Below are positions 3,481 through 29,033 of a DNA stretch of 64,000 nucleotides, piece after piece. The translations under genes and the position numbers were made by a program. Below the pieces are notes generated by a model. It was not told where the DNA came from. It worked only from the letters and a program-made list of their open reading frames with translations, and made no database searches. Position 1 is the first letter of the stretch. The number at the start of each line of letters is the position of its first letter. Origin of the DNA: Niastella caeni (GTDB lineage: Bacteria > Bacteroidota > Bacteroidia > Chitinophagales > Chitinophagaceae); the NCBI RefSeq assembly GCF_004834005.1, contig NZ_STFF01000003.1, positions 186,001-250,000 on the forward strand, read 5' to 3'.

Positions 3481-5907
3481 TTAATGCAACAGGTTCACCG
3501 ATCCTTTACGGGTAACCTCTGTACCATCAGTCAGCCTGATGCGTATAACATAATAGTAAACGCCTATCGGCTGCAGCTTCCCTTTATGGGTACCATCCCA
3601 CCCGGCAGTGATGCTATTGGTTTCATAAATTGCCTCACCCCATTGGTTAAACACTTTCATTGTTAACCCGGCGATCACATTACCATACACCTTAAACAAT
3701 TCATTTTTTCCATCACCATTTGGCGTGAATGTATTAGGAATGAAAATTTCATCGGTCAATGTTTTGGCAGTCGCCTTACCAGGCGTACTGTTCTGACAAC
3801 TTTTAGCGCCCAGTGCTATCACATGTATTGTAACAGTAGTCAATGGTTGCAATCCTGAAACAGTATGGGTAGTGCCCATGCTGCCGGAAGAAGGACTTAT
3901 ATACGCGCCGCCATTTATTGAAACCTGGTAACCTGTAGCTCCGGCAACTGCCTGCCATTGAAAGGTTACACTGCCTGGCGTTACCGTAACAGGAATGACT
4001 AATGGCGTAGCCAGCGCTGCCGGCTGCGAGATCACCACTGGTGTACGGGTGCTGGTGCAACTGCCATGTTGTACTTCGGCATACCAGGTAGCCGGTAACG
4101 TAGTAGTAGCCACTGTAACTGTTGAACCGGTTACTTGTGGTGTTCCACCAGTCGATTGCGTATACCAGTTATAAGTATAAGCGGCATTGGGGTTTTGTAT
4201 TGTTAAAGTAGCCGTCTCGCCCGGGCAAACAGTTGCCCCTGTGGCCACCGGACCTAAAGGCGGTGCAGGAGCTGCCAATGTAACGCTCCGGGTTATCTGG
4301 CAACCACCATGCATAATGGTTACTGTATAGGTGCCGGCTGGCTTACCAGTAATATTGGCTGTTGTTTCACCGGAAGGCGACCATGCATAAACATAAGGCG
4401 CATTGCCACCGGTTACAACCGTCGTAATGCTGCCATTGGAGGTGCTGGTGCAAACAGGCGCTACCATAGTAAAAGCAACCTGCAATGAATCGGTAGCGAA
4501 AGTGAAGAACTCGTTGTTGTTAAGTGTTACTTCTGCATACAACTTCCCGTTGGCAATTGTAAGCGGGTAAGAATTAAAAGTGCTGAAACCGGCATCTGCC
4601 GAAACAAGCAATCGTTTTGTATTGGCCGATAACACACCCGTATCAACAGCAATGGTTACGGTTGAAATGCCCGTTCCGGTTTTCTGTACTTTCCAGGTCC
4701 TGGGCATGCGATTCAGATAACCATTGCCAGCACAATCCGACAACGTATTGGCCAGTCCATTATCCCCAATCAATAAATAAGACAGATCACTGCTTATCCC
4801 TATAGTGTTATCAGCATTGGCAGCAGGAAAGTTGCCACCGGCAGTTCCATTATATATATAAACAAGGGCATTGTTATGCGCAGACAGGGATTGCTTCTGC
4901 AACAGTACTGAATTATCATCCCGGCCAATACCGGTGATGTTGAATGAATAGCCTGCATTGGCAGTGGCATTCCAGATAGTGCTGCCATTTGTTGCCGCAT
5001 AATCACGCGCAGTAGTTGATTGACCACGCGTTAAAGTAATGCCATATTTAACAGCCAGGTAGGTTTCTACTTTATTCTGATCTTCTTCAGTTAAATAGGT
5101 GTCATAAGAAATCACTTCTGCTAATCCGCAACTCATGTTCTGTCCACCGGCAGCAGCGCCATCGCTTCCCATATACAACCCAGTTGGAATTATGGGTGTA
5201 TAACTGTAACCATCAGCAGGCTGGTTATACCGATGGCTGACAGCTATGGAATCACCGTTGCGCCGGGCATCGAAAAAAAGATCAGCCGTACTTTTATCAA
5301 CTCCTTTGCACGACAAGATGATCCCTGCTTTTTCAGCATAGCCGGGAACACCGGAAGGAAATGGCGCCCAGTTATAAAAGTCACCGGTACCACCCGCAAT
5401 GCCATCACCGGATTGTACCCGGAAAGAAGGTTTAAACTGATACGCATACGTATTGGCTTTATAAGTTAATCCCGAAGGATTGCCATCAGTTACCCCATTA
5501 TACGTATTCACCACCATGAACAGGCTTCCATTATTGCCTGCCAGGTCGGGTGTTGTGGCCGTGTTATATAACACCGTATTACCTGCTTTTGAAAATTGCA
5601 GGAAGGGGTTGAAGTTAAAACTCCCGATAGTGGTGGCAGTAGCCTGAAATGTGGGTTGGCGGCTTACTGTAGGCTGGCTAACCTGGAAATTACCCAGCTC
5701 GCTTTTCCAGTTGGCTACAGAAGTAGAACCAACAGCCGTATCAACATTACCAGCAACAGAAGAATTGGCCTTGAACCAACTGGTCAACCCAGTGGATACC
5801 CCCCCGGGCGATTGTGCATATATAAGAGTATTACAAAGGCAGACCACCACTGTACATACCAGGAAGCGCTGCATTCTTTGGGTGTTATATATGAAAGCCT
5901 TCTTCAT
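3481..5907 (-). CDS. T9SS type B surface protein: module A N-terminus, module X C-terminus
   Basis: This protein of 808 residues has a signal peptide to about residue 32 (LIYAQ). Module A (~33-480) begins PGGVSTGLTSWFKA, contains KVETYLAVKYGITL and ITGIGRDD, and resembles the LamG-like plus DUF8202 arrangement of Bacteroidota surface proteins. A SprB-type repeat follows (~483-545, GGNAPYVYAWSPSG), then an Ig-like domain, an Fn3-like domain and the gliding-motility-associated C-terminal domain (~718-808, FIPNTFTPNGDGKNE). That last domain is the T9SS type B sorting signal and usually needs a PorP/SprF-type partner; two such genes lie upstream in the same direction. Module A matches the 886-residue protein and the last ~180 residues match the 685-residue protein. 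Likely a secreted adhesin. Confidence 0.92.
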   Translation of the reverse strand: MKKAFIYNTQRMQRFLVCTVVVCLCNTLIYAQSPGGVSTGLTSWFKANSSVAGNVDTAVGSTSVANWKSELGNFQVSQPTVSRQPTFQATATTIGSFNFNPFLQFSKAGNTVLYNTATTPDLAGNNGSLFMVVNTYNGVTDGNPSGLTYKANTYAYQFKPSFRVQSGDGIAGGTGDFYNWAPFPSGVPGYAEKAGIILSCKGVDKSTADLFFDARRNGDSIAVSHRYNQPADGYSYTPIIPTGLYMGSDGAAAGGQNMSCGLAEVISYDTYLTEEDQNKVETYLAVKYGITLTRGQSTTARDYAATNGSTIWNATANAGYSFNITGIGRDDNSVLLQKQSLSAHNNALVYIYNGTAGGNFPAANADNTIGISSDLSYLLIGDNGLANTLSDCAGNGYLNRMPRTWKVQKTGTGISTVTIAVDTGVLSANTKRLLVSADAGFSTFNSYPLTIANGKLYAEVTLNNNEFFTFATDSLQVAFTMVAPVCTSTSNGSITTVVTGGNAPYVYAWSPSGETTANITGKPAGTYTVTIMHGGCQITRSVTLAAPAPPLGPVATGATVCPGETATLTIQNPNAAYTYNWYTQSTGGTPQVTGSTVTVATTTLPATWYAEVQHGSCTSTRTPVVISQPAALATPLVIPVTVTPGSVTFQWQAVAGATGYQVSINGGAYISPSSGSMGTTHTVSGLQPLTTVTIHVIALGAKSCQNSTPGKATAKTLTDEIFIPNTFTPNGDGKNELFKVYGNVIAGLTMKVFNQWGEAIYETNSITAGWDGTHKGKLQPIGVYYYVIRIRLTDGTEVTRKGSVNLLH

Positions 5908-5944
5908 TGCGTCTTGTTTTTCTATTATTTATTGACTTCATTTC

Positions 5945-8401
5945 TTACCTGACTATAGCCACCCAGCCATTGTAATTACGGGTGGCCGTTTTTATCACGT
6001 AGTAATAGGTAGCTATGGGCACGGGCTTTCCTTTCCAGGAGCCATCCCACGGAGTACTATACCCGTTACTATTATAAATGGATTGTCCCCAGCGGTTGAA
6101 GATCTCCACGCTGCAATTAGTAACACCACGCAATCCGGCTATCTCCCATTTGTCGTTAATGCCGTCACCGTTTGGACTGAATACATTGGGAACGATCAAG
6201 ACTTTATCTGGTATAACCATTAAGAATTTACGTACGGCGGTGTCTTCACAACCAATATCATTGATAGCATGTAAGGTCACTGTGTAATTGCCGGGATACT
6301 GGTACTGATGAGAAGCATTAGCGGTCGACGGAAAATAAGAGCCATCACCAAAATCCCATTTATAAGTAGTTGCGCCTTTAGAAGTGTTGGCAAATGCAAA
6401 ATTGGCCAGGTGCATTTCTATGGGCACATTCTCCACCGGTGAAACCGTAAAGGAAGCCTCAGGGTATTCTTTTACGTTTATCAAATTGGTTTGAACCAGT
6501 GTATCGGAACATTTGCCTTGCGACGAAACGATCAACGTTACCGTATATACACCCGTATTGTTATAAGTGTAGGATGGGCTTACACTGGTAGAAGTACCGC
6601 CATCGCCGAAGGTCCACTTCCAGGCATCGGTATTTTGCGACTGGTTGTTGAATGTAACCTTATAGGGTGTACAGCCTGCCTTTGTATCCGGCGTAAAGGC
6701 CGCTACCGGCGAGGGTAATACATTAATGAGCCTGGAACGCGCTACCGATACACAGGCACCATCTCTTACTGTTAAGTTAATAATGCCGCTTCTGTTGTAT
6801 TTGACGGTATAAGGCCCAAAGCCACTTCCGGATTGTACCGTTCCCCCGCCCCAACCCCAGGTAGCAGTGGCATAACCCGCCCCACTACCTGTATATGTGG
6901 CCGTAATGGTTGAACCGGCACATATTACTGAATCACTTACGGAAAAGGCTGATGACACCGGGGTGGAAATAATAACAGGGTTCGTTGTTATTGTTGACAC
7001 GCAACCGTTATCTGTCACCTGCAATTGCAGGTTATAGGTTGCGGGATTGTTAAATAGTATTGTGTACGGACCTTGTCCACTGCCGCTTTGCACAGTAGCG
7101 CCTGCAAATCCAAACCAATCATAAGTAGCGGTGCCGGAGGCATTGCCCGTGTAGGTAATTATTTGCGGTGTACCTAAACAAACATTTGCCGGCGTAATAA
7201 TGAATGTAGATGCAGGCAGTGTTCTTACCGTAACCGGCACTGAAGCTGAAACAGCACAGCCATTGTTATCTGTACCACTTACTGTATAAGTGGTAGTAGC
7301 AGTTGGAGCAACTGAAACATTATTACCCGTTACATTACCAGGATTCCAGGTGTAAGTAGACACCGTTCCTCCGGTTGCACTTACCGATAAATTCACTGCT
7401 TCACCGGCACAAACCGTGCTTGGGGTTGCCGTAGGCGTTAGTATGGCTACTGGCGACGAAGGCACTGTACCCGAATAAGTGACCGTGCAATTATCAGCCT
7501 CCCTGATCGTACAGGTGTAGCTACCAGCCCCCAGGTTATTTGCCAACGCCGTTGTTTTCACCGGCGTGGTATTCCAGGCATACGTATACGGAGCAGTACC
7601 ACCTGTAACTGTCAACCCAATACTTCCATTGGCATTACCGCAGGTAGCCTGCGTAATTACCGGTGTAATGGTGGGCGGTGTATACCCGACACCAGATAAT
7701 GCCAGCACGACCAATCTTCCGAAAGTCGTATTACCATTTAAATAACTTATAGTAAGTGATTGCAGTAATTTGTTCTTGTTGACGCAACTTAAAGGGAGGT
7801 TCAACTGGTAAAACCGGGGATCGCCGGTCCCAACACCAAACGTAGTATAAGGCGGCGCATTTAACCGGGTTGTTCTTCCATATGCAGCATATACAGCGCC
7901 GGCTCCGCCAAACCAGTCGAGGATATTAAAATTACCGGCATTAAAAGTAGTTCCATCCGTAAAATTCATAACTACATTAATGTTGGCGTGATCTTCAGTT
8001 GCAAACAGCAACAGGTTCACCGCTGAATACATGGCCGGCGTTGTCAATGTTATATTGCCCGATGCTGCGGTGTTTACCTGCGCACCTCCGGCAGAGAGAT
8101 ATAACACATTATTGCCCGTATAAGGTTGTAATTGCCAGGTACGGGTGCCACTCACAATAGTACCGCTGTTGGGCAACCCGGCCAACAAGCCATTGATCGC
8201 GGCGAACGTAGTCGAATACATAATGTAGCTCGACAAATCAAGCGCTGTAGTTGTTACAGCGGTAGCATCAATACCCGACTCGGCAATGCCATCCTGGTTA
8301 AAGCCGGTAACAGGTATGGGGGAATAGGTTTGTGCCAGGGAACCAGTTGCAATAACCAACCCACCAATCAACAGGGCGATATATTTTCCGATCTTACTCA
8401 T
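5945..8401 (-). CDS. T9SS type B surface protein: module B N-terminus, PKD plus module Y C-terminus
   Basis: I start it at the ATG at 8401 (818 residues), since MSKIGKYIALLIGG begins a normal signal peptide; the frame is open to 8470 but those 23 residues would precede the signal. Order: module B (~25-240), a SprB repeat (~247-305, GGTAPYTYAWN), three Ig/PKD-like domains, two canonical PKD domains (WTFGDGG near 590, WDFGDGS near 675), and the gliding-motility C-terminal domain (~733-818, VPNVFSPNGDGIND). The N-terminus matches the 685-residue neighbour and the beta-helix protein; the PKD-PKD-tail block closely matches the 886-residue neighbour. Function is inferred as a secreted, cell-surface adhesive protein delivered by T9SS. 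Confidence 0.92.
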   Translation of the reverse strand: MSKIGKYIALLIGGLVIATGSLAQTYSPIPVTGFNQDGIAESGIDATAVTTTALDLSSYIMYSTTFAAINGLLAGLPNSGTIVSGTRTWQLQPYTGNNVLYLSAGGAQVNTAASGNITLTTPAMYSAVNLLLFATEDHANINVVMNFTDGTTFNAGNFNILDWFGGAGAVYAAYGRTTRLNAPPYTTFGVGTGDPRFYQLNLPLSCVNKNKLLQSLTISYLNGNTTFGRLVVLALSGVGYTPPTITPVITQATCGNANGSIGLTVTGGTAPYTYAWNTTPVKTTALANNLGAGSYTCTIREADNCTVTYSGTVPSSPVAILTPTATPSTVCAGEAVNLSVSATGGTVSTYTWNPGNVTGNNVSVAPTATTTYTVSGTDNNGCAVSASVPVTVRTLPASTFIITPANVCLGTPQIITYTGNASGTATYDWFGFAGATVQSGSGQGPYTILFNNPATYNLQLQVTDNGCVSTITTNPVIISTPVSSAFSVSDSVICAGSTITATYTGSGAGYATATWGWGGGTVQSGSGFGPYTVKYNRSGIINLTVRDGACVSVARSRLINVLPSPVAAFTPDTKAGCTPYKVTFNNQSQNTDAWKWTFGDGGTSTSVSPSYTYNNTGVYTVTLIVSSQGKCSDTLVQTNLINVKEYPEASFTVSPVENVPIEMHLANFAFANTSKGATTYKWDFGDGSYFPSTANASHQYQYPGNYTVTLHAINDIGCEDTAVRKFLMVIPDKVLIVPNVFSPNGDGINDKWEIAGLRGVTNCSVEIFNRWGQSIYNSNGYSTPWDGSWKGKPVPIATYYYVIKTATRNYNGWVAIVR

Positions 8402-8461
8402 CTCTTTTTGTATTAATGATGTATTGCTCCAGCTTCCCGGTCGAATACGCTTATGCTTAAT

Positions 8462-8525
8462 GCAAAACACTTAACGCTGGTCCTTGGTGATATTTGCATT
8501 TCGCGCTCAGCGTTAAGCGTTTTGC
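8462..8525. repeat. 18-bp inverted repeat between two type B surface genes (GCGTTAA word family)
   Basis: GCAAAACACTTAACGCTG (8462-8479) pairs with 8508-8525 with a single mismatch, giving an 18-bp stem around a 28-nt loop. The right arm continues as iterated GCGTT words up to the stop codon of the upstream gene at 8537. No T-run follows on the minus strand, so it is not a classical terminator. It could slow decay, partly terminate, or be a dispersed element. Confidence 0.7.
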
Positions 8526-8536
8526 GTTCAGCGTTA

Positions 8537-10594
8537 TTAATGCAACAGGTTAACAGCCCCCTTCCTGATGCTTTCTGTGCCATTGGTGAATTTTATTTTG
8601 ATCACATAGAAGTAAACGCCCATTGGTTGTACCGAACCTTTTTGTTTACCATCCCAGCCTGAGCTTACATCACTGCCATCATAGATCAGTTCACCCCACT
8701 GATTGAATATTTTCATATTGATACCCGCGATCACATTTCCATACGCCCTGAAGAAATCATTCTTCCCATCGCCATTCGGCGTAAAGGAGTTGGGAATAAA
8801 TACCTGGTCGGTAAGCGTAGTACCGGTTGCAGTTCCAATGGCGCTGTTGCGGCAGGCTTCTACCCCCAGCGCAATGACATGGATAGTGATCTTCTCCACC
8901 GGTTGCAGATTGATAATATTATGCGTAGTACCCAGGCTGCCCGATGTAGGAGTGATGTATGGGCTGCCATTTACAGAAACAATATAACCCGTGGCGCCTG
9001 GTACCGGTTGCCAGCTAAAGGTAATGGTACTGCTGGTGACCGTAGCTACTGTAACAACTGGTGTTGCCAGCGGCGCATTTACGATCACTTGTTTGGTAGC
9101 AGTACCTGAGCAACCATTCATGGTTACCTGTAATTGCAAGGTATAAGTACCGCTATTGCTAAACAAAATATTGTATGGGCCCTGACCGCTGCCGCCATAC
9201 ACCGTAGCGCCGGCAAAGCCATTCCAGTTATACGTTGCGCCATAAGGTGCATTGCCTGTGTAGGTAACTGTTTGTGGTGTATTGGGACAAACAGGATTAG
9301 GATCAACTGTAAAGGAAGCGGTAGGCAACGGTTTTACAGTTATCAGGATCGTATCTGCGGAAGTACATCCATACATATCTTCTGCACCAACAATATAGCT
9401 GGTAGTAACAGTGGGCGAAACAACAATGGCAGAGCCGGTAATACCACCGGGGTTCCAGGTATAGGTGCTTGGTACAACATAGGCAGTATCTGCGTACAAG
9501 GTAGTTGACGTACCAGCGCAAACCGATGCGTTGGTAGCCTTAGCAACCACAGGCGCCGGTGTTACCAGCGTAACCGTGCCGGTATAAGTTCGCACACAGC
9601 CGTTTGAATCCGTTACATTACAGGTATACGTTCCGGCGGGAAGCCCGGAAGCAAAAGAAGTTGTTTGCACCGGGTTCGTGTTCCATGCATATGTAAAGGG
9701 TTTTACGCCGCCGGATACTGCCAATGAAATATATCCATTGTCAGTAACTCCGCAACGGGCCGGTAATACGGTAGGCGTAATGCTATACGGTTGAATAGCC
9801 TCACCGGATACAGCCAGTACAAGCACCCGGGCACCGGTTGAAGTACTGGTATCAGAAACGGTAATTGATTGCAATAGCCGGTTCTGGTTATCGCAGTGCA
9901 CAAACATATCCTGCGCATAAAACCGGGGATTGGAACCAACTCCATCTACTGTGAATGGTCCCGTAGTATCGCGTTGAATTCGACCGAAATTTGCATAGAT
10001 CGCATTAGCGCCATAATACCAGTCCTGCACATTGGCATTTGTTACCGCGCGTTCTGTGGTACCATCTGTATAATTCAGGTTTACATTTATTCTGCTGGAG
10101 CCTTCTGTTGAGAATAACAAAAGACTTAACCGGGCATAATGACCGGGCGTTGAGAGGGTAAGTGTACCATCGTTCACCGTACTGTCAACCGTACCATTCC
10201 TCGACAAATACAACGCATTCTTATCGGCATACGACGCCAACTGATAAGTTCGGGTACCATTTACGATCGTACCGTTGTCAACCATACCACCGGCTAAACT
10301 ATTAGCAGTAGCAAACGCTTCTGTATATACAACGTGCCGGGCTACAAAAGGACTACCATCTATCATAGTAGTGGTTGTCGCTAAAACACTGGTTCCTGTC
10401 TCAGCCACTATATCGTGATGAAAACCGGTTACCGTAATAGGCGTATATGTCGTTTGCCCGTGGCTATCGCTTTGAGTGATCAGCAAACCAAGTAACAGGC
10501 CTATACAAAGAACGCCTCTCCTTCTTCCTTTTAGTAAACGCACATGCTTACTGCTGTTATTTGAAAATATTTTTTTACTCCTCAGTGTGTTCAT
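8537..10594 (-). CDS. T9SS type B surface protein: module B N-terminus, module X C-terminus
   Basis: This protein of 685 residues has a basic N-region (LLKGRRRG) and a hydrophobic segment ending SHGQ near residue 47. Module B spans ~48-270 (PITVTGFHHD, DWYYGANAIYANFGR, LLQSITVSD). It is followed by a SprB repeat (~275-335, GGVKPFTYAWN), an Ig-like domain, a PKD-like domain (GGSGQGPYNILF), an Fn3-like domain and the gliding-motility C-terminal sorting domain (~598-685, FIPNSFTPNGDGKND). The N-terminal half parallels the 818-residue neighbour and the Fn3-tail block parallels the 808-residue protein, down to the shared ending VNLLH. Likely a T9SS-exported adhesin. It lies 74 bp after the 886-residue gene in the same direction. 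Confidence 0.92.
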   Translation of the reverse strand: MNTLRSKKIFSNNSSKHVRLLKGRRRGVLCIGLLLGLLITQSDSHGQTTYTPITVTGFHHDIVAETGTSVLATTTTMIDGSPFVARHVVYTEAFATANSLAGGMVDNGTIVNGTRTYQLASYADKNALYLSRNGTVDSTVNDGTLTLSTPGHYARLSLLLFSTEGSSRINVNLNYTDGTTERAVTNANVQDWYYGANAIYANFGRIQRDTTGPFTVDGVGSNPRFYAQDMFVHCDNQNRLLQSITVSDTSTSTGARVLVLAVSGEAIQPYSITPTVLPARCGVTDNGYISLAVSGGVKPFTYAWNTNPVQTTSFASGLPAGTYTCNVTDSNGCVRTYTGTVTLVTPAPVVAKATNASVCAGTSTTLYADTAYVVPSTYTWNPGGITGSAIVVSPTVTTSYIVGAEDMYGCTSADTILITVKPLPTASFTVDPNPVCPNTPQTVTYTGNAPYGATYNWNGFAGATVYGGSGQGPYNILFSNSGTYTLQLQVTMNGCSGTATKQVIVNAPLATPVVTVATVTSSTITFSWQPVPGATGYIVSVNGSPYITPTSGSLGTTHNIINLQPVEKITIHVIALGVEACRNSAIGTATGTTLTDQVFIPNSFTPNGDGKNDFFRAYGNVIAGINMKIFNQWGELIYDGSDVSSGWDGKQKGSVQPMGVYFYVIKIKFTNGTESIRKGAVNLLH

Positions 10595-10668
10595 CAGTCA
10601 AGACTTTGCTTTTATAATATTTTTCAGAACATTTTTGTCTTCTTCATTTTCATTCTGCCTGCTCCATT

Positions 10669-13329
10669 CTATCTTATCAATGCTACCCAACCATTATAAT
10701 TGCGGGTAGCCGTTTTTATAATGTAGTAATAGGTGGCAACCGGCGCCGCTTTCCCTTTAAAGGTGCCATCCCATGGATTGGCATAGCCCGTACTCCTGTA
10801 AATGGATTGTCCCCACCGGTTGAATATTTCAACATAACAATTAGTAACATTTCGCAGTCCGGCTATTTCCCACCTATCATTTATGCCATCGCCATTCGGA
10901 CTAAATGCATTCGGAACAACCAATACGTTATCGGGTATAACCATATAGTATTTTCGCATAGCAGAATCAACACAACCAATATCATTCATGGCATGTAACG
11001 TCACTATATAATTACCTGCATCCCTGTATTTATGGGAAGGACTGGTTGTTGATGAAGAATCGCCATCACCAAAATCCCATGTATAGCTGTTCGCATGTTG
11101 CGAACCATTATTGAAAATGAAGCTGGCCAGGTGCATTTCCACCGGAACATTTTCTGCGCCTGTACTGGTGAAGGCTGCAACCGGGCTGGGCTTTAACTGT
11201 ATCAAATTCGTTTTTACCAGGGTATCGAAACATTTCCCTTGTGAAGAGACCATGAGCGTTACCGTATAATCTCCTGCGTTGTTGTACGTGTATACCGGAT
11301 TGGCGCTGGTAGCTGTACCACCATCGCCAAAAGTCCATTTCCAGGCATCGGTATTTTGTGATTGGTTATTGAATGTAACTGCCAGGGGTGGACAGCCGAT
11401 AGTTACGTTCGGGGTGAAGGCAGCTACTGGTTCGGGTATTACATGGACGGTCACAAAAGCCGTATCGGTGCAACCTGCGCCATCATTCCCTATTACCCGA
11501 TAGGTAGTTGTATCAGTCGGCGTCACATTAATGGAAGCTCCGGTGGCGTTACCAGGCATCCAGGTATAACCAGTCACTGTACCCGAAATAACCGATGCCG
11601 TCAGCGTAACATTTTCGCCCTGACAGATAACGGGTTGTGCAGTAGTCGCTGAAATAACCGGGAAGACCGGTGTAACTAAAGTAACCGGATAAACCACCGA
11701 ACAACCCGATCCGGTTTTTACCGTCAATTGGTAATTACCGCCTTTTAAGCCGGTAGCATTAGCGGTCGTTTGCACCGGTGTTGTATTCCAGCTATAGGTG
11801 TATGGCATAACGCCACCGGTTACAGCAGTAGTTACCCCTCCGCCATTACCTGCGGTACAGGTTGGTTGCGTTACAGCCATCACTACTTTCAGCGAATCGC
11901 TGGCAAACGTGAAATATTGATTACTGTTTAAGGTTACCGTAGTATATAATTTTCCGCTGGCCGCAGATAACGGATAAATAGTAGTTGCTCCTTCAGGAAA
12001 CAATGGATCATTTGAGACCAACAGATTTTTTACAGAAGCATTAACTGCCGTTGCGTCAACAGCCAGAGAAACGGCGCCTATCGTTCCGGTCTTTTGCACC
12101 TTCCATACCCGTTGCATACTGCTGATCTTGCCACTGTATACACAGGCAGTCAGGTTTCTGCTCAGGCCATTATCGCCAAATAGTAAGAAACTGTTATTGG
12201 TGGAGAAAGAAGAAATATTGTTAGCATTCATGGCAGGAAAACTACCTGCTACATTTCCATTGTACAGGTATACCAAAGAACTATCATGAACCGATTTGGA
12301 TTGCTTTTGCATGAGAGCCGAAACATCATCCCGGCCAATACCTGTAATACACTTTCCATAACCCGTATTAGCCACTCCATTCCATATAATTGTGCCACCA
12401 GCAGATGAATAATTGGTAGGCGTGGCAGGTACTGTGAATGTGTTGCTTTGGCTAAGCGTAATGCCATACTTCACCGCGAGATATGATTCTACCTTATTTA
12501 CATCAGCATCCGACAAATACGTATCATAAGTAATTACTTCTGCAATAGCGGAAGAAGAAGCTTCGCTACCGCCGGGTGAATTAAAGCCAATACCCAACCC
12601 CGAGCCAATGGCCGGGTAATAAACAGCGCCGGAACCCAGGATCGTGGTATCTGCATTTCGTCTGGCCCTGAAAGTTGGTCCGGCAGAACGGGAAGTAAGC
12701 ACCACCGCCGATGACCGTGGATACGTGATGGCAGGAATGCCTGCCGGATTCAGTCCTGTAGAAGCCGGGTCCAGGTCGGCAATGTAGCCAAAGCTTGCTA
12801 TACCGGTTTGGATCCTGAAATCGGCTTTTGCCTGGTACCTTGCGCCTGTACTGTTTGAATTATACGAGAAACAGGTACTGGAGGTAAAGCCGGTTTCGCG
12901 GGTAGTGTTCAGCACCAGGAAATAGGTTCCATTATTACCTAACAACTCAGGTGCTGTGGCAGACGTATTTGTCAATCCCCTTATTTGCGAAGAAGCAAAC
13001 TGCAGGGATGGATTAAAATTAAAATTGGCAGCAGCGGTATAATTGGCCAGGAACAACGGCATGTTGTTCGTTATGGCCTGGGTAACACTCAAATTACCCA
13101 GCTCACTTTTCCATTCATTGATCCGCGTATTATGGGTAGTATTGGGTAAGATGTTACCGCCCACCTGTGAATTTGCTTTAAACCACGAAGTAAGATTTCC
13201 CGAAACACCGCCAGGTGTTTGCGCGTCCCCCATCATCATCATACATAAAAACACACAGGTAGCAACAGCCTTACTGAATCCAGGGTGCAATACCCGTAAA
13301 CAGATCTCGTATGTGTGCTTATTTACCAA
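10669..13329 (-). CDS. T9SS type B surface protein: module A N-terminus, PKD plus module Y C-terminus
   Basis: This protein of 886 residues has a signal peptide ending near residue 36 (MMMMGDAQ). Module A (~37-480; PGGVSGNLTSWFKANS, KVESYLAVKYGITL, ITGIGRDD) matches the 808-residue protein. A SprB repeat (~486-545, GGVMPYTYSWN), an Ig-like domain, two PKD domains (from ~633; WTFGDGG and WDFGDGD) and the type B sorting domain (~803-886, VPNAFSPNGDGINDR) follow. The PKD and tail block is nearly the same as in the 818-residue protein, which suggests recent duplication or gene conversion. It begins 27 bp after the M43 protease stop and is probably cotranscribed with it. Role inferred: secreted surface adhesin. 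Confidence 0.92.
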   Translation of the reverse strand: MVNKHTYEICLRVLHPGFSKAVATCVFLCMMMMGDAQTPGGVSGNLTSWFKANSQVGGNILPNTTHNTRINEWKSELGNLSVTQAITNNMPLFLANYTAAANFNFNPSLQFASSQIRGLTNTSATAPELLGNNGTYFLVLNTTRETGFTSSTCFSYNSNSTGARYQAKADFRIQTGIASFGYIADLDPASTGLNPAGIPAITYPRSSAVVLTSRSAGPTFRARRNADTTILGSGAVYYPAIGSGLGIGFNSPGGSEASSSAIAEVITYDTYLSDADVNKVESYLAVKYGITLSQSNTFTVPATPTNYSSAGGTIIWNGVANTGYGKCITGIGRDDVSALMQKQSKSVHDSSLVYLYNGNVAGSFPAMNANNISSFSTNNSFLLFGDNGLSRNLTACVYSGKISSMQRVWKVQKTGTIGAVSLAVDATAVNASVKNLLVSNDPLFPEGATTIYPLSAASGKLYTTVTLNSNQYFTFASDSLKVVMAVTQPTCTAGNGGGVTTAVTGGVMPYTYSWNTTPVQTTANATGLKGGNYQLTVKTGSGCSVVYPVTLVTPVFPVISATTAQPVICQGENVTLTASVISGTVTGYTWMPGNATGASINVTPTDTTTYRVIGNDGAGCTDTAFVTVHVIPEPVAAFTPNVTIGCPPLAVTFNNQSQNTDAWKWTFGDGGTATSANPVYTYNNAGDYTVTLMVSSQGKCFDTLVKTNLIQLKPSPVAAFTSTGAENVPVEMHLASFIFNNGSQHANSYTWDFGDGDSSSTTSPSHKYRDAGNYIVTLHAMNDIGCVDSAMRKYYMVIPDNVLVVPNAFSPNGDGINDRWEIAGLRNVTNCYVEIFNRWGQSIYRSTGYANPWDGTFKGKAAPVATYYYIIKTATRNYNGWVALIR

Positions 13330-13356: not shown

Positions 13357-15504
13357 TTATTTTTTAATGATCTTTTTCGAAACCGTACGATCACTATATA
13401 CTAACCTGATTAAATATACCCCGTTAGCATACCTACCCAGGTTGAAAGAGTAAATAGTTGCCGGCGCATTATTATTGATAATTTTTTCTGCTACTTTTTG
13501 TCCGGTGCTACTGAACACGCTGATCCCTTTCAGGTTGACCGGCGTGGTCTTGAACTGCACGGTAACGGGCCCGTTCGATGGATTGGGTGTGATCAACCAT
13601 CCATTCTTTTCCAGGTTGGGATTGCTTATTTTTTTGTACAGGTTGATATCGTCGATGTAAACATTGTTCTCGTTACCGGTTGAATTGGCAAAAGCGATCA
13701 TCACCGGTCCTTTATTGATGTAAGGTGTCAGGCTAACAGAATCCTTTCTCCATTCACTGGCGGCAGGTACAAATGAGGTTGTAGTAATGCCGTTACGCGT
13801 TATCAGCGAGCCACCCCATTTTTTATACAGGCTGGTGAAGGTGATTCCACAGTCTGTGCTGACAAGCACTTGCAGCGTATCCCAGTTGTTCAACAAAGTA
13901 CCCGGATTGGTTTTTATAGCTGCCGCTACCTGGAAGGTTAGAAATGCAGAGTCAGCATCTGCGATGGAAACCTGTGGCAGGCGCAGATAATCTATTTGTC
14001 GGTTTTGCGTATAGGTATAGTTACGCACTACCATAGCCGCGCTGCCTGTTTTAGCAACGCCGGGCACTCTTTCCCAGGTTAAGGAACCATCGGCATTGAT
14101 GAGATCCCAATTGGCTGGCGGAAACGTTTCCAACTCAAAACCTTCCGTCAACGGTGGTGCAATAGCTACAGGATATACAAAGGCCTTGCTCAGTGTATCG
14201 TTCGCCAACCCCTGATCAGTACCACCATTGGGCGAGGTTAGTTGTATTTTTAAGGAATGCGTACCGGTAGCACCAGCAGTACTTGTATTTAAAGCAACGG
14301 ATACAGTTTCAAGACTGGCTAATGATCCCGTCCATTGGGTTTGTACAGGTGTGCCGCCATCAACACTTGCATTTATTATAACAGAGGTCAATGGCTGTGA
14401 GCCATAATTACGTATTGTAATGACCGGTGAAAATTTTGTATCGCACACGCGGTTATATGGGTTATCGATGCTCATCACCTGGGCATCGAGGTCTTTCAGC
14501 GGTGATATGGCCCCGTTTGAAGTAGTAAGCGATGACCGGAAATTGGTCAATGCCGTTTCCATGCGGGCCACCTGCAATAAGGTGAACATGGCCATGCAAC
14601 CATCGCTGCTGTAGTCCATATAATTCTGGTACATGATACCCGCAGCAGTGTTATTGCAGGCATCCTTTACCACTCCTGTGTGACAGCCGGCACTGGCATC
14701 AGCCTGGTTCGGCGTATCGCTCACACCATCGCTGCCGTTACAGGCGCCATCATCGTCGCCCCAGATATGATACAGGAAAAAGAAATGGCCGGCTTCATGG
14801 GTAAGGGTACGACCATCATTGTACCCTGCAAGCGAACCACCGGGCAGGGTTACATCGTAAATAACAATGCCCTGTTCTGCTGCCGAAGCGCTGGTAGGGA
14901 ATGTGGAATAACCCAATACGCCACCTGCCAGGTTACACACCCAGATATTTAAGAACCGGGAAGAATTCCAGGCATTCGCTCCGCCGGTAGCAGCATGCTT
15001 TACATTATTATTGGCAGCACTAAAAGAAGTTTGCGTGGTGACGATCCGTTCTATACCGTTAGTAGGTAAATTACCAGGTGTACGTTTCGCCAGCACAAAC
15101 TGGATCTTTGACTTTCCAAACAATGGTTTGAACGCCGCAGGAATATTTACAGAATCGGCATTCATTCCCGCAAAATCAGTATTCAACACTTTCAACTGAT
15201 CTTCTATCATTTTATCGGTTACCATTGCAGGATCGGGCAATACAATATGAAATACCACAGGTATATACACCGGGGTGGCCATTTCACGCGCCTGCGGATT
15301 GTTTTCCCGCTCAACGGCCAACTGTTGTATACGCAACATGTCCTTTTCAAATCTTTCTTTCAGGGCCTCGTCTTTCTCAAGGGAATTTTTGAGAACTTCC
15401 ATGGTTGCACAGCGACGCACAGGCATGTCCTGCGCCATTGAACGGAATAGGAATCCCTGCATCATCAGCAATACCGCTACACAACCATATCTTTTTAAAA
15501 GCAT
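13357..15504 (-). CDS. Secreted M43 (pappalysin-like) zinc metalloprotease with T9SS type A tail
   Basis: I choose the ATG at 15504 (715 residues) because MLLKRYGCVAVLL starts a normal signal peptide; the frame is open to 15570 but would overlap the next gene. The catalytic motif HEAGHFFFLYH has zinc ligands H236, H240 and H246 with E237 as base, and a Met-turn NYMDYSSDGCM follows, as in family M43. A CARDB-like and a jelly-roll-like region fill the middle. The last ~80 residues (NGWLITPNPSNGPV...VSKKIIKK) are a T9SS type A sorting domain. It should act outside the cell. It sits between a PorP/SprF gene and the type B proteins, so it could process them or attack external protein; that role is inference. 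Confidence 0.93.
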   Translation of the reverse strand: MLLKRYGCVAVLLMMQGFLFRSMAQDMPVRRCATMEVLKNSLEKDEALKERFEKDMLRIQQLAVERENNPQAREMATPVYIPVVFHIVLPDPAMVTDKMIEDQLKVLNTDFAGMNADSVNIPAAFKPLFGKSKIQFVLAKRTPGNLPTNGIERIVTTQTSFSAANNNVKHAATGGANAWNSSRFLNIWVCNLAGGVLGYSTFPTSASAAEQGIVIYDVTLPGGSLAGYNDGRTLTHEAGHFFFLYHIWGDDDGACNGSDGVSDTPNQADASAGCHTGVVKDACNNTAAGIMYQNYMDYSSDGCMAMFTLLQVARMETALTNFRSSLTTSNGAISPLKDLDAQVMSIDNPYNRVCDTKFSPVITIRNYGSQPLTSVIINASVDGGTPVQTQWTGSLASLETVSVALNTSTAGATGTHSLKIQLTSPNGGTDQGLANDTLSKAFVYPVAIAPPLTEGFELETFPPANWDLINADGSLTWERVPGVAKTGSAAMVVRNYTYTQNRQIDYLRLPQVSIADADSAFLTFQVAAAIKTNPGTLLNNWDTLQVLVSTDCGITFTSLYKKWGGSLITRNGITTTSFVPAASEWRKDSVSLTPYINKGPVMIAFANSTGNENNVYIDDINLYKKISNPNLEKNGWLITPNPSNGPVTVQFKTTPVNLKGISVFSSTGQKVAEKIINNNAPATIYSFNLGRYANGVYLIRLVYSDRTVSKKIIKK

Positions 15505-15548
15505 TTTAAGTGATTTCAGTTTTTTTCTAATGGATACTATTTCGTTTG

Positions 15549-16565
15549 TTACCATACATTTCTCGGACAACCATCATCGTATTTGTTGCCGATGGTAAAG
15601 CCAACTAAAAATTCATGGGTACCGCGACTATAGTTATTCAAAGCCGAGGTGGTATAATCATATGAATACCCAACATGCACGGCATTGGAAATATTCATAC
15701 CCAACATAGCGGCAAAGCCGTATTTCATCCGGTAGCTGGCGCCCAGCCAAAGGAAATCCTGGTAAAGCAGTTTTGCATTTACATCTACCTGTACCGGTAA
15801 TGGATTGATATATTTTACGAGTACAGAAGGAATGAGATTAAAATCTTCGGTCAAAAGAAACCGATAGCCGGAACTTACGAACACATGAGGAACAAGCCGG
15901 CCACCGGTTTGCTTCACCGTATTATCTGTAAAATCAATTTTTTGAGGAATGATCTGTTGAGCAGACAACCCAACAAAATAATCTGCTGAATACAGGTACA
16001 GGCCAGCCATCAGATCGGGTTTGAATTTGTTGATGGCGCCGCTGGTATAAACAGCCGGATCAACCGGTACTGCGAATTGCAGTTTATCGGTCTGCAAGCT
16101 TATTCTGGAAAACCCGGCGCCAAATCCCGCCGCCAGACTGGTGCGCGGACTGATACCGATGTGATACGCATACGTAGCATATGCAGAGAACAGTCCTAAC
16201 GGGCCTGTTTTATCATTGATCACCTGCAAGCCAATGCCATGGTGTGGTGTTGCAGCCGTATAATCTTCCCAGTAACGCTGCCCTCTGGGATTTTCACCCG
16301 GCATAGCAAAAGAGGTAGGCGTAGTGCGATAATCTTTTTTACCTAATGGCGTATGAGCAGTAAGGTAAGTAGTAACAGGAGCGCCGTCGATCCCCGTCCA
16401 CTGATGCCGGTGACTTACCTTAATATCTGTATAGTTCTCAATACCGGTAATCGCCGGATTAATGATATACTGATTCAGGATGTATTGTGTATAGTGGGGC
16501 TTCTGCTGGGCTTGTGCCTGTATACAGGTGGCCACTATGATACAAAGTGTTATTATCTTCTTCAT
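15549..16565 (-). CDS. PorP/SprF family type IX secretion outer-membrane protein (first copy)
   Basis: The start is the ATG at 16565 (338 residues), giving the signal peptide MKKIITLCIIVATCIQAQAQ; the frame is open to 16619 but the extra 18 residues are polar. The PorP/SprF signature follows directly: KPHYTQYILNQYIINPAITG, then alternating beta strands of a 14-strand-type barrel with GIGLQVINDKTGPLG. In Flavobacterium johnsoniae SprF is needed to export the type B protein SprB, and SprF-like genes often lie beside genes for type B proteins. Here it flanks four such genes, so it is probably their dedicated outer-membrane partner. It is 44 bp upstream of the M43 protease. Confidence 0.93.
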   Translation of the reverse strand: MKKIITLCIIVATCIQAQAQQKPHYTQYILNQYIINPAITGIENYTDIKVSHRHQWTGIDGAPVTTYLTAHTPLGKKDYRTTPTSFAMPGENPRGQRYWEDYTAATPHHGIGLQVINDKTGPLGLFSAYATYAYHIGISPRTSLAAGFGAGFSRISLQTDKLQFAVPVDPAVYTSGAINKFKPDLMAGLYLYSADYFVGLSAQQIIPQKIDFTDNTVKQTGGRLVPHVFVSSGYRFLLTEDFNLIPSVLVKYINPLPVQVDVNAKLLYQDFLWLGASYRMKYGFAAMLGMNISNAVHVGYSYDYTTSALNNYSRGTHEFLVGFTIGNKYDDGCPRNVW

Positions 16566-16639
16566 GTGCTGCGTTTTGTAAATCGTGAAACGGCAAACGT
16601 GAAATGGCAAATTCACCAATTAACTTGTCAACTTACCTC

Positions 16640-18640
16640 CTACTTCCCCAACACCTTAAACTCAGTTCTCCTATTCCGCTGCCTTCCTTCCGCATCGTCG
16701 GATCCATCTTCATGTTTGTTTGGCGCTACCGGCAGAGTTGCTCCGTATCCTTTGCTTTGCAAACGGCCTTTATCAATGCCTTTGCTTACGAGATATGCCA
16801 CCACCTTCGCGGCCCGTGCTTCAGAGAGGTTCATGTTATAGGTTTCTGTACCCCTGTCATCTGTATGCGCCCTGATCTCGATCACCATGGTGGGATATTC
16901 ATTCAGCAGTCCAATCAGTTTATCCAAAGCCGGGAATGATTCCTGGCGCAGCGAGGATTTATCAAAATCGTAGTACACATTATCCATGACGATCACTGCT
17001 TCTACAGGCGGCTGTTCTCTAACCAGGCAAATAACCGGGTTGGTCAGGCTGTCTTTATCAGCACCTTCATCGGGCATATTAAATTGCAGGGAGTCGCTTT
17101 TAAAACCGGGCAATGTTGCTACTGCTTTCAATGGCTGGAATTCTTCCATTGCAAAAGCATAACTTCCATCAGCCCCGGTAGTGGTGGTATAAACTGTTTT
17201 ATTATTTATTGTATCAATAATGCTTACACTAACACCAGACAGCAGGGAACGGTCACTGCAGGCCGCGATCAATCCATTTATCTGCTTAGGCGATCTCTTC
17301 TTTTTGAGGGAGAATAATTCCAGGCAGCATTCAGCCAACCGGTCAGAGCTTATTATTACATCTTCCAAAATGTTTTTAGCGGTACCGCGACTGGTAAAAT
17401 AGATATCGTCTTTTATAGAGTTAACGGGGTAACCAAAGTTGACGGGAATGGCCCAGGCATTCATTGCGCCTTTGCTGTAAAAGAAATCGAAGCCACCCAT
17501 GCCAATGCGGCCATTGCAGGAGAACACCAGCGTACCGGAGGCCTCATGATAGTACGGCGCTTGTTCATCATTGAGGGTATTGATGGTATTGCCGAGGTTA
17601 ACCACTTTTTCCGGCTTGCCATTGGCACCTAATGTGGCGCACCACAGATCAAATCCGCCACTGCCGCCGGGTTTATCGCTGGCGAACAATAGCGACTTTC
17701 CATCGGGCATTACAAAGGGTTGCTGTGAATTATAACCGGGTGCATTCACAAGGGCATCTACCAATACCGGTTCGCTCCAGGCTTTACCATGCTTTTTGCT
17801 GGTATAAATAGCCGATGTTTTCTTTCCGTTAACGATCGACCAACGGGTCAGGAACAGGACTTTGCCGTCGGGCGTACTGCTCACTACACCCTGATGAATG
17901 CCGGCGCCCTGGGGTATTTCTACCTTATTTACATTTTTTACAGCACCTTTATCATACACCGCTTCAAACAGGCGGTTGAAGAAAGGCTTATCTTTTGCAT
18001 CGCCTTCAGGCCGGGTAGAAGTAAAAAGCAATGTGTTCTTATTCAACCATACCGGTGAATAGTTGGCGCCACCTGGGTTAATAGTCGCGCCTTGCTTTTC
18101 TACAGTAAATAATGGCAGATCTGTTCTGCGCAATTGCTCCCTGATGAAATGCAGGTTCAGCACTTCGCTCCTGGCAGAATTCGTATATACGTCATCCGCT
18201 TTATAATTATCCAAAAACAGTTGAAATGCTTTTTCCGCCTCATCATACTTGCCCAATGCACGCAGGGTGCTGGCATAATAATATTGAGCCAACGGCAACT
18301 GACTGTTTTTATAACTGAGCGCCTGTTCATAATAAGCAACCGCCTTCACCGGGAAATTCAACAGGCGATAGCTTTCCGCCAGGTTGTATACAGCCAGTTG
18401 CGCACTGGATGTAACTGCTTTCACAACGCCTGATGCCGGTTTAACGTTATAAGGATTATAATCCGCCCTGCTCGCTTTTGATCCTTTTGTGCCCAGGTAT
18501 TTTTCGTAATACAGGGCGGCAGAGTAATAGTCCCCTTTTTTATAATAATTGTCAGCAGCTTTCAGATAATCTTGCACAAACTGGCCCCGCGCCATTATAA
18601 AGGCGGGTACTACACCCAGTATGAGAATTATTTTTTTCAT
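16640..18640 (-). CDS. OmpA-family lipo/envelope protein with TPR, PD40-like propeller and peptidoglycan-binding domain (PorE-like)
   Basis: The start is the ATG at 18640 (666 residues; signal MKKIILILGVVPAFIMARGQ); nine upstream codons in frame look non-coding. TPR helices occupy ~20-180 (DYYSAALYYEKYL, AVAYYEQALSY). A WD40/PD40-like propeller covers ~190-430 (LLFTSTRPEGD, SLLFASDKPGGSGGFDLW), a carboxypeptidase-regulatory-like fold ~450-530, and an OmpA domain ~548-666 with the peptidoglycan-contact motifs NLSEARAAKV and NRRTEF. This is the architecture of PorE-type proteins that tie T9SS outer-membrane parts to peptidoglycan. It is sandwiched between two PorP/SprF genes. No lipobox is visible, so anchoring is by the OmpA domain. 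Confidence 0.92.
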   Translation of the reverse strand: MKKIILILGVVPAFIMARGQFVQDYLKAADNYYKKGDYYSAALYYEKYLGTKGSKASRADYNPYNVKPASGVVKAVTSSAQLAVYNLAESYRLLNFPVKAVAYYEQALSYKNSQLPLAQYYYASTLRALGKYDEAEKAFQLFLDNYKADDVYTNSARSEVLNLHFIREQLRRTDLPLFTVEKQGATINPGGANYSPVWLNKNTLLFTSTRPEGDAKDKPFFNRLFEAVYDKGAVKNVNKVEIPQGAGIHQGVVSSTPDGKVLFLTRWSIVNGKKTSAIYTSKKHGKAWSEPVLVDALVNAPGYNSQQPFVMPDGKSLLFASDKPGGSGGFDLWCATLGANGKPEKVVNLGNTINTLNDEQAPYYHEASGTLVFSCNGRIGMGGFDFFYSKGAMNAWAIPVNFGYPVNSIKDDIYFTSRGTAKNILEDVIISSDRLAECCLELFSLKKKRSPKQINGLIAACSDRSLLSGVSVSIIDTINNKTVYTTTTGADGSYAFAMEEFQPLKAVATLPGFKSDSLQFNMPDEGADKDSLTNPVICLVREQPPVEAVIVMDNVYYDFDKSSLRQESFPALDKLIGLLNEYPTMVIEIRAHTDDRGTETYNMNLSEARAAKVVAYLVSKGIDKGRLQSKGYGATLPVAPNKHEDGSDDAEGRQRNRRTEFKVLGK

Positions 18641-18692
18641 CGTAGTTCTTTTGTCGTGAATGGTCAATAGTGAATGGTGAATGAGAATACAG

Positions 18693-19700
18693 CTACAATC
18701 TTGGACAAATGAAATTCCCTTCAGGCGTTTTTACTGTCTTTCTACCGGTAAAGGATAGTGATATTTCAAAACTGTTCGATCCCCGCGCCATTTTACCCAG
18801 GTCACTGGTATTCACATCATAACTTACTCCCAGCACTATATTTTTATGCGTAAAGCCAATAAATGGCGATACTGCGTCGTTAATACGATAGTTGGCGCCC
18901 AACATTACATCCGTACCAGGTGCAGCATTTAACTGAACATACGCGCCGGCCATTTTTTCTTCGGCCGTACCCTGCTTTGCATACAACACATTAGGCGTAA
19001 TGCTCATCATTTCTGATAAAGTAAGCCGTACACCGGCATGCCCGGTATAGCGCATCGGTAATTTGGCATTGCCATCGCTGCTGAAATAATCTTTTGGTTT
19101 GGTAAGATGCGATACGGAAAAGCCTGCGTATACATTGGCTTTTTTGCCAGGCGCCGCATCAAAGTATAAGATACCTGCACCGGCATCGAATGAAGAAGTT
19201 TTCGTTTTATTGAAGCCATCAGTGGAGGAACCGGGGTTATAGCCGGTAATAGGGTCCCACTGATCACCGAACGTGAATTTGGAAGCGTTAAAGCCCCGGA
19301 AGATCATCCCGAGCTGCAGGCCCATTACAATACGATGGTTTTCGGCAGCACCGAAACGAACGCCCGTATACGCCAGGTTGGCATATCCTGTAGTATAATA
19401 ATAGCCGCCATCACCAGCAGTCTGGTTCAGCAGATTAATCCCGACATTCACATTGTTACTGGTAACAAACTCACCGCCTAGGCCAACCGTAGAAAAAGGT
19501 TTACTGATATTGCCCCACTGATTACGATAGATGCCCGACACGCGATAGTCGCCATCGAATGAGCCGGTCAACGCCGGGTTCAACCAGGAAGGATATACAT
19601 AATACTGGGTAAAATGCGGATCTACCTGCGCCTGCAGCGCCTTGCCGGAACCGGTAAAAAGCATCAACAGCGTCAACAGCCTGATATTTAGTCTTACCAT
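18693..19700 (-). CDS. PorP/SprF family type IX secretion outer-membrane protein (second copy)
   Basis: This protein of 335 residues has a signal peptide ending ALQAQ near residue 25, then the family signature DPHFTQYYVYPSWLNPALTGSFDGDYR and barrel strands such as GVNLLNQTAGDGGYY. It differs enough from the first copy (15549) to be an old paralogue. It is the first gene of the co-directional T9SS series, and its 125-bp upstream gap separates it from the DUF4302 gene. I found no clear Bacteroidota promoter (TTTG, then TAnnTTTG) in that gap. The leader between this stop and the OmpA-family start contains iterated GTGAATGGT words. Confidence 0.93.
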   Translation of the reverse strand: MVRLNIRLLTLLMLFTGSGKALQAQVDPHFTQYYVYPSWLNPALTGSFDGDYRVSGIYRNQWGNISKPFSTVGLGGEFVTSNNVNVGINLLNQTAGDGGYYYTTGYANLAYTGVRFGAAENHRIVMGLQLGMIFRGFNASKFTFGDQWDPITGYNPGSSTDGFNKTKTSSFDAGAGILYFDAAPGKKANVYAGFSVSHLTKPKDYFSSDGNAKLPMRYTGHAGVRLTLSEMMSITPNVLYAKQGTAEEKMAGAYVQLNAAPGTDVMLGANYRINDAVSPFIGFTHKNIVLGVSYDVNTSDLGKMARGSNSFEISLSFTGRKTVKTPEGNFICPRL

Positions 19701-21290: not shown

Positions 21291-22196
21291 CTACTTAATC
21301 AGCTTCTCCACCTGCGCTCTCACTCTCGTTTGCAGACTATAAAAGTCAATACCCCAGGTATCTTTGAAATACGAAACCACGATGGCTTCTTTCTGGCGTA
21401 AGCGGCTTATTGCCTGCGCCTGCGTTACGTTATTGTCGCTGGTACCGGCCGGTATGCTATTCACGATGGCATTAAAACCAGCCTTGCCTTCTACCAACAT
21501 CATACTGATCATTTCCACAAAATCCTCATCGGGTGAAGACTCTGCATAGGCTGATACAAATCCGTCGCGGTTCGCTTGCGCATCCGATACATTATTCCAG
21601 TTGGAGGTATAGAACCCTACAGAAATAGATTTGTAATCCAGCGGGTACATGATGGTCTGGTGAAGAATATGCCCGAACTCATGCTCAATGGTGTGGAACA
21701 TTCGCTTGATGCCAAAAGAATCCGAAGGCACATAACCGGTCATGCCTTTCGTTCTGAAATCATTCAACACATACAACACCACTTTACGACCACCTTCCGC
21801 CGTACCCAGCGTAATGGTTCCATCGGTGTTCCAACTGGCGCTACCGGCCAATGCGAAGAACTTGGGAACATACTTCTTCATGAACAGCGAATCGGTTTCA
21901 GCGATATAGGTATCGATCCACACTTTTTTCACGGCGCTTAATACCGGAATGATCTTTTCTTCTTTGGGCGGAACCAGCGTCTTGTTCACGCTCAACTCAA
22001 ATTGGTCCCACTTATATTTTACAGCTATGTTGAAGGGTACAGTCAAACTGTCGAACACCCATTTATCAATAGGCGTACTTGCCCAGGTATCGCCACCAAG
22101 CCCCGGAATATCTTCTACGTTGTCCAGTGATTCCTTTTTGCAGGACACCAGTGACAGCAGGCAGAAGAAGAACACTATTTTTTGTGTATTATTCAC
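21291..22196 (-). CDS. Substrate import-associated zinc metallohydrolase lipoprotein
   Basis: The protein has HEFGHILHQ (H172, E173, H176), the zinc motif of the putative zinc-binding metallopeptidases that accompany SusC/SusD. I start at the GTG at 22196 because it directly yields the lipoprotein signal MNNTQKIVFFFCLLSLVSC (Cys 19) in a 301-residue protein with an A-rich leader. The frame remains open upstream to an ATG at 22370, 11 bp after the susD stop, but that would put 58 polar residues before the signal. Later residues AESSPDEDFVEMISMMLVEG probably supply the third ligand region. Substrate is unknown; it probably acts on material held by the SusCD pair. Confidence 0.88.
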   Translation of the reverse strand: MNNTQKIVFFFCLLSLVSCKKESLDNVEDIPGLGGDTWASTPIDKWVFDSLTVPFNIAVKYKWDQFELSVNKTLVPPKEEKIIPVLSAVKKVWIDTYIAETDSLFMKKYVPKFFALAGSASWNTDGTITLGTAEGGRKVVLYVLNDFRTKGMTGYVPSDSFGIKRMFHTIEHEFGHILHQTIMYPLDYKSISVGFYTSNWNNVSDAQANRDGFVSAYAESSPDEDFVEMISMMLVEGKAGFNAIVNSIPAGTSDNNVTQAQAISRLRQKEAIVVSYFKDTWGIDFYSLQTRVRAQVEKLIK

Positions 22197-22381
22197 CAGT
22201 ATATTTTTTAATTGTTTTAACCGCTCCAGCAAGGGAACCAACCAGCCGGGCACCCGCTTATCGATGATCATATCGTCGTACGACTGTAATACATTTCTCC
22301 GGCCACTGGCAATAGATATGGGTATCACTTTGGCTGTTACTTGTCTTTTGTTATGTATTTCATTCATCATTGCAACAGGGT

Positions 22382-23836: not shown

Positions 23837-23908
23837 GTTCGCTTTTGTTACGTGTTAGTTCTTGGTTTTTTCTCGTAGCCTCTATTCGTTGTTGCCTCGT
23901 TGCTTTTC

Positions 23909-27604: not shown

Positions 27605-27826
27605 ACCGTTATTGGGTTGATTTTAAGTAATAGGCAGCCCTGTCGCCGGTTTATAACCGTACAACCATATGCTACCGTAACATTAAATGGCAAGTATACT
27701 TTTGAATAAACTAGGCACGCTTGGGCGGGATCAACTGGTTTCAGATGTGTACAGGAGCATTGTGCCTGTCTGGTCTATACCGGTTAAGGCTTGATTTCCC
27801 TAAGCGTTAGATTGGTTTTTCCAGGA

Positions 27827-28840: not shown

Positions 28841-28953
28841 CAGTTAAGGTTTTATATATTATAAACACGGTTTACTGTAAGTTTCGGGGGGATATGGTGT
28901 AATATTCTTGTATCTTTTTTCTGGCTTGTACCCCGTGACTATTAAAGCCGGCC

Positions 28954-29028
28954 GCAAGCTTCAAGCTTCAAGCTGAAAGCCGCAAGCAAATACAGGAGAT
29001 GGCTTTAAGCTTGTAGTTTGCAGCTTGA
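28954..29028. repeat. 28-bp imperfect inverted repeat (AGCTTCAAGCTT word family)
   Basis: Arm 28954-28981 (GCAAGCTTCAAGCTTCAAGC...) pairs with 29001-29028 with about 5 mismatches and a 19-nt loop. Both arms repeat the word AAGCTTC. It lies in the sigma-fecR gap, directly after the sigma stop. A related word stretch lies near 2625-2653. Confidence 0.72.
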
Positions 29029-29033
29029 GGCTT

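Follow-up and report, generated by a model that had tools for sequence, protein, structure and literature searches.

Results

The window, i.e., the whole stretch of DNA analyzed here, covers 64,000 nucleotides of a contig from Niastella caeni (NZ_STFF01000003.1, positions 186,001 to 250,000). Its minus strand carries four complete open reading frames that combine two N-terminal modules (heads A and B) with two C-terminal modules (tails X and Y) in the order AX, BY, BX, AY, at the coordinates and in the arrangement that the original prediction had given. Common to all four proteins are a signal-peptide-like start, an SprB repeat, Ig- or PKD-like domains, and a C-terminal type-B sorting domain of the type IX secretion system (T9SS). 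The sorting domains score 67.8-91.5 bits with CHU_C (Pfam) and 50-72 bits with TIGR04131, in every case above the curated cut-off. With the SprB family PF13573 (Pfam cut-off 28 bits), the repeats of AX (32.1 bits) and BY (39.9) are recognized, and those of BX (25.9) and AY (24.1) lie just under the cut-off.

All coordinates that follow are on the minus strand. The AX protein (808 aa; 3481..5907) consists of head A (residues 32-480; 4468..5814), the SprB repeat (4273..4458, assigned with PF13573 and its flank extended by eye), an Ig_7 domain, and an X tail made of an fn3-like and a CHU_C type-B sorting domain and ending in NLLH (3484..4017). The BY protein (841 aa; 5945..8470) has head B (7667..8350), SprB, an Ig domain, two PKD-like domains, and a Y tail with the architecture PKD-PKD-CHU_C and the motif WEIAGLR (5948..6727). 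BX (685 aa; 8537..10594) joins head B (9779..10474) through SprB, an Ig domain and one PKD-like domain to an X tail (8540..9076), and AY (886 aa; 10669..13329) joins head A (11884..13221) through SprB and an Ig-like domain directly after it (11446..11688) to a Y tail (10672..11445).

Pairwise identities bear out the two-by-two pattern: 48% for the A heads (AX vs AY), 46% for the B heads (BX vs BY), 62% for the X tails (AX vs BX), and 71% for the Y tails (BY vs AY). Heads A and B are not similar to each other, and the sorting domain (about 36-46% identity) is all that X and Y tails have in common. A profile of the X tail gives its partner 370 bits, as opposed to about 190-199 bits for the next-best tails in the same genome; with the Y profile, the partner tail scores 570 bits and the Y-type tail of a second locus in this genome (contig C10, see below) 135 bits. 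The Y blocks are thus much closer to each other than to other family members, as had been noticed originally, and since the next-best tails score far under the partners, the pattern is not a product of chance.

Alignment, AlphaFold and VIA together predict that head A, as seen in AX, is a concanavalin-A/LamG-like lectin sandwich with a second beta domain. The AlphaFold model is of moderate confidence (pLDDT 77.5), and its VIA matches are to jelly rolls of the GH54/AbnA/tailspike kind (Z 17-20). Foldseek and VIA matches of this head to clostridial neurotoxin binding domains reflect a common jelly-roll fold, not kinship. Head B of BX, modeled confidently (pLDDT 92.9), is a predicted carbohydrate-module-like beta-sandwich that matches AziU3/U2 (VIA Z 15.9) and, distantly, CBM29/86 (about 8). 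The two predicted folds suggest carbohydrate-binding roles for heads A and B.

The adhesin genes share their operon with two PorP/SprF-family carriers and a PorE-like gene, which had been passed over in the original prediction. In order of transcription the run reads SprFa, PorE-like, SprFb, M43, AY, BX, BY, AX, and, with all genes on the same strand and about -20 to 80 bases between neighbors, it is taken to be a single operon. SprFa (18693..19700; PF11751, E 5e-51) is, from its association with tails, the predicted partner of X tails, and SprFb (15549..16619; PF11751, E 2e-77) that of Y tails. The PorE-like protein (16640..18667) comprises TPR, PD40 propeller, carboxypeptidase-regulatory-like and OmpA domains, of which OmpA and PD40 exceed the cut-off, and TPR and CarboxypepD_reg lie below it but occur in the expected order. 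The remaining gene encodes an M43 metallopeptidase with a type-A sorting tail (13357..15570).

SprF-type carriers of gliding adhesins possess a Cys-Xaa-Cys motif in the periplasmic C-tail (PMC12635249). This motif is absent from the C-tails of both SprFa and SprFb, which have a single Cys each and end in FICPRL and DDGCPRNVW, respectively. The same holds for the two carrier classes at large: nearly all complete SprFa-class proteins have a conserved CPR(L/F) end and the SprFb class a CPRNVW-like end, i.e., one conserved Cys at the place of the Cys-Xaa-Cys of gliding SprF.

Two further features flank the operon. Downstream of AX, and likewise passed over originally, lies the gene of a 2903-aa protein, truncated at the left edge of the window (1-2550, minus strand; full open reading frame L027:3842-12550). 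Its head is distantly B-like (about 35%), CHU_C finds no match in it, and wherever the gene occurs in other genomes of the genus it also adjoins the locus. Beside the adhesin operon, at 21291-29597, the translations indicate SusC/SusD-like genes together with genes for a FecR-like regulator, an ECF sigma factor, and a lipoprotein that may be a zinc peptidase.

The junction between heads and tails was located by similarity in 40-residue windows along protein pairs. SprB directly follows the head in all four proteins, and X or Y homology begins well beyond it, about 85 aa further on in AX, 170 aa in BX, 245 aa in BY, and 80 aa in AY, with at least one Ig- or PKD-like domain in between. A-type similarity persists to the end of SprB and then drops; B-type similarity extends past the head across SprB, one Ig-like and one PKD-like domain. 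X similarity begins at the fn3 domain and Y similarity at the penultimate PKD domain. The core formed by SprB and the Ig domain is related among all four proteins and tracks neither head nor tail pairing. SprB had been expected to sit at every junction and to mark a sharp change in sliding-window identity. However, it is not the crossover point, as the homology switches from head type to tail type 80-250 residues past it.

In order to relate tail class to carrier content, we assembled 44 operons chosen by similarity to SprFa or SprFb (a few, L101-L103, not by carrier alone) and scored their tails with X and Y sorting-domain profiles trained on A- and B-head proteins only. All 64 tails were clearly X or Y, by a margin of at least 34 bits. 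X tails occurred at 27 of 28 SprFa loci and at none of the 16 loci without SprFa (Fisher p = 4e-11, uncorrected for the shared ancestry that makes the loci non-independent), and Y tails at 25/25 SprFb loci vs 7/19 others. Both tail classes were found in each of the nine operons with both carriers. A PorE-like gene accompanied 27/28 SprFa loci and none of the 16 SprFb-only loci. In a further check on new loci, the neighbors of SprFb were Y in five of five cases, four of them outside the family, and the one SprFa neighbor was X. The tracking of SprFa/SprFb gene content by X/Y tail class is the main new result of this study, from which we infer that tails dictate the choice of carrier. A literature search confined to papers readable without subscription found no earlier description of this rule.

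The rule holds for operon content only, not for adjacency. Immediately upstream of SprFa, X and Y genes are about equally frequent, so that a one-to-one adjacency of tail and carrier was rejected, and in the window, too, the tails are not immediately next to their predicted carriers. As several operons have Y tails with SprFa alone (the g12 A and B cassettes, G274, and four G124 operons), it may be that SprFa serves Y tails as well or that an SprFb is encoded elsewhere. Seven B-head X genes lie with an SprFa that has no neighboring PorE. A Y tail without an X tail occurs at a single SprFa locus of the sample (L134, genus g12), which lies on a short contig, so that its X gene may be missing.

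A second X+Y operon in the same genome (contig C10, about 945-974 kb; L101, L163) contains SprFa-like, PorE-like and SprFb-like genes and encodes an X-tailed protein of 4086 aa and a Y-tailed one of 1426 aa, both with IgGFc_binding domains in their heads. Matched heads are the rule in the X+Y operons of the family: 13 of the 15 in the sample have a common head on the X and Y proteins, homologous over about 650-750 residues at 30-43% identity, and two (L111 and L130) have unmatched heads. The rule holds for the third head type (C) as well, with CX and CY heads forming two clades across genera (100/100). The A and B pairs of the window are two more cases of one head with two tails, here together in one operon, which is a doubled version of the two-address layout. 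The adhesin set had originally been framed as combinatorial, a description that does not suit heads that occur in matched X/Y pairs.

The age of the arrangement was assessed among 10 genomes of the genus, including Niastella vici DJ57. In N. vici the four genes recur in unchanged order, AX-BY-BX-AY, with identities of 78, 81, 77 and 69%. Four other genomes lack A genes but carry BX and BY at the corresponding position, so that A genes are present in two of the six genomes with a B pair. Another genus, g12, has all four combinations, arranged as AX-SprFa-PorE-AY on one contig and BX-SprFa-PorE-BY on another. The four window genes are at most 73% identical in DNA (long aligned blocks), and third codon positions of the tails, about 37-51% identical between paralogues, are near saturation. 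Quartet sites comparing this genome with N. vici number 81 for AX|BX vs 6 and 13 for the alternatives in the X tails, indicating that X tails have not been exchanged since the split from that species. For the Y tails the counts are 38, 25 and 14, which places the split between AY and BY tails at about the age of the species split; any homogenization of Y tails is therefore about that old, not recent. Recent gene conversion between AY and BY within one genome was rejected on these counts and for want of a high-identity tract. Neither near-identical exchange tracts nor a variable arrangement between relatives was found among these genes. The arrangement is old and stable in the family; recombination happened, but long ago, and the claim that the set may still be changing does not stand.

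One recent structural change is evident between the two species, in the domain that directly follows SprB in AY, the one stretch that the window protein does not have in common with its N. vici orthologue (L030:6943-9615). Identity between the two is about 80% up to the end of SprB, about 20% over this one domain, and 50-80% thereafter. The window segment is nearest the first Ig domain of BY. In N. vici the segment is nearest the PKD-like domain that comes last in BY (72% to the BY of N. vici, 61% to that of the window). The change came about by replacement or by differential loss, and as the AY protein of genus g12 matches a PKD-like pair at this position, loss from a longer AY ancestor is no less likely than a swap.

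Agreement between phylogenies of the N- and C-terminal halves had been named as the finding that would speak against shuffling, but head and tail trees strongly disagree. The A-head tree joins the AX heads of this genus to those of genus g17 (100/99.9) and rejects a single clade of all A heads of the genus (p = 3e-7). In the Y-tail tree, AY and BY of this genus form one clade (98/99) and those of genus g12 another (89/97); a single clade of AY tails is rejected (p = 1e-5), also with the PKD-PKD part alone (p = 0.0002). The X-tail tree likewise groups AX and BX of this genus (96/99) and rejects a single clade of AX tails (p = 0.002), a result driven by the sorting domain (alone p = 0.002), as the fn3 part alone gives no rejection (p = 0.09). 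B heads are less regular, with BX and BY heads being sisters in G274 (100/98). AX and AY tails branch outside all BX and BY tails of the genus, not within the two-species group.

Discussion

The pattern that prompted this study is real and non-random, and it is better described as two matched adhesin pairs in a two-carrier operon of family-wide design. The presence of all four combinations requires recombination between heads and tails, and the original proposal of shuffled halves stands to this extent; its placement of the breakpoints at SprB does not. AX and AY heads diverged before the genera did, and the tails group by lineage. The heads are therefore old and the tails homogenized. Such trees may arise in either of two ways, by homogenization of tails between neighbors in each lineage or by grafting of heads onto resident tails. 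Given that no BX or BY tail of the genus encloses the AX and AY tails in the trees, we favor homogenization in the ancestor of the genus, with a later loss of the A pair.

In Flavobacterium johnsoniae, type-B tails require a cognate SprF-like carrier, closely similar tails cross-talk or share one, and the tail determines whether a protein is gliding or fixed, the fixed one being linked with a PorE-like gene (PMC12618676). In Porphyromonas, a complex of PorE, PorP and substrate is known (PMC9143113). Against this background, we consider it probable that the window holds a T9SS operon in which heads A and B are each encoded in two versions that differ in C-terminal carrier address, X for SprFa and Y for SprFb. 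The X version would bear the address predicted for SprFa, which is usually coupled to PorE, and the Y version that predicted for SprFb. By analogy with F. johnsoniae, SprFa together with PorE would serve AX and BX, and SprFb would serve AY and BY. Each tail would be exported and anchored by its own carrier, so that the X version might be tethered to peptidoglycan via PorE and the Y version not. Recombination between neighboring genes may keep tails alike within a lineage, probably owing to the need to fit shared carriers.

A broader reading, which we put forward tentatively as something short of probable, is that Chitinophagaceae-type bacteria use a two-address display code. A head would be encoded twice, once for the PorE-tethered SprFa (X) and once for the PorE-free SprFb (Y), and the same specificity would be displayed at a static site and at a differently anchored or mobile one, with intra-operon recombination keeping tails matched to carriers.

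Ordinary modular paralogy could also be invoked. CHU_C proteins are mosaics everywhere, X-type tails are found on many unrelated large proteins (30 of 103 genera), and Ig and PKD domains are gained and lost freely; the two-by-two set might have arisen incidentally through duplication and domain swapping, without any functional pairing. However, we regard this as unlikely in view of the matched heads in 13/15 X+Y operons, the near-perfect association of X with SprFa and of SprFb with Y, and the conservation of the pairs across genera. A horizontal gain of the A pair by the common ancestor of N. vici and this species, with its heads being grafted onto resident X and Y tails, is rather improbable, too. 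Such an acquisition would fit the restriction of A genes to two of the six genomes with a B pair, as well as the grouping of AX heads with another genus and of the tails with resident B tails. However, the A genes occupy two separate sites on either side of the B pair, and their tails, which lie outside all of the genus's BX and BY tails, fit an A pair that was present earlier and was lost later. Ongoing recombination at SprB that shuffles halves into a changing adhesin set, to which the four combinations, the discordant trees and the differing domain after SprB in AY would lend themselves, is very improbable given that order and combinations are identical in N. vici, recent near-identical tracts are absent with third positions near saturation, and tail homology starts elsewhere than at SprB. 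Nor did a recombinase or a system of inverted sites come to notice in the course of the analysis.

Current questions in the T9SS field include the contribution of type-B carriers other than export and the way in which carrier specificity is encoded (PMC12618676). The two-address interpretation offers a testable rule, in that the type-B sorting tail can be read as an address that predicts the carrier across a bacterial family, and one head is found again and again at two addresses. Naturally occurring X/Y pairs that share a head provide controlled comparisons as they stand. In addition, the discordant head and tail trees are a clear bacterial case of tail homogenization, which may reflect a shared secretion partner.

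The products of the Porphyromonas gingivalis genes kgp, rgpA and hagA are type-A tail proteins. As in the window, these genes encode T9SS surface proteins with differing N-terminal units and exchangeable C-terminal domains, subject to recombination between paralogues; unlike the window combinations, which are fixed across species and genera, they vary between strains (PMC5266723). The PorE-PorP-PG1035 system of P. gingivalis has PorE-like and PorP-like partners that anchor a type-B protein, as is supposed for the window, but it has a single substrate and no paired heads (PMC9143113). Closest in layout are the Fjoh_3952/3951/3950 and SprB/SprF systems of F. johnsoniae, which, like the window, combine type-B tails within a single operon with SprF-family carriers and a PorE-like gene. 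However, the F. johnsoniae operons are reported to hold one substrate and its cognate carrier, whereas two carriers and several substrates come together in the window operon, and the occurrence of the same head on both tail classes is a feature of the window operon that sets it apart from the F. johnsoniae operons as described (PMC12618676).
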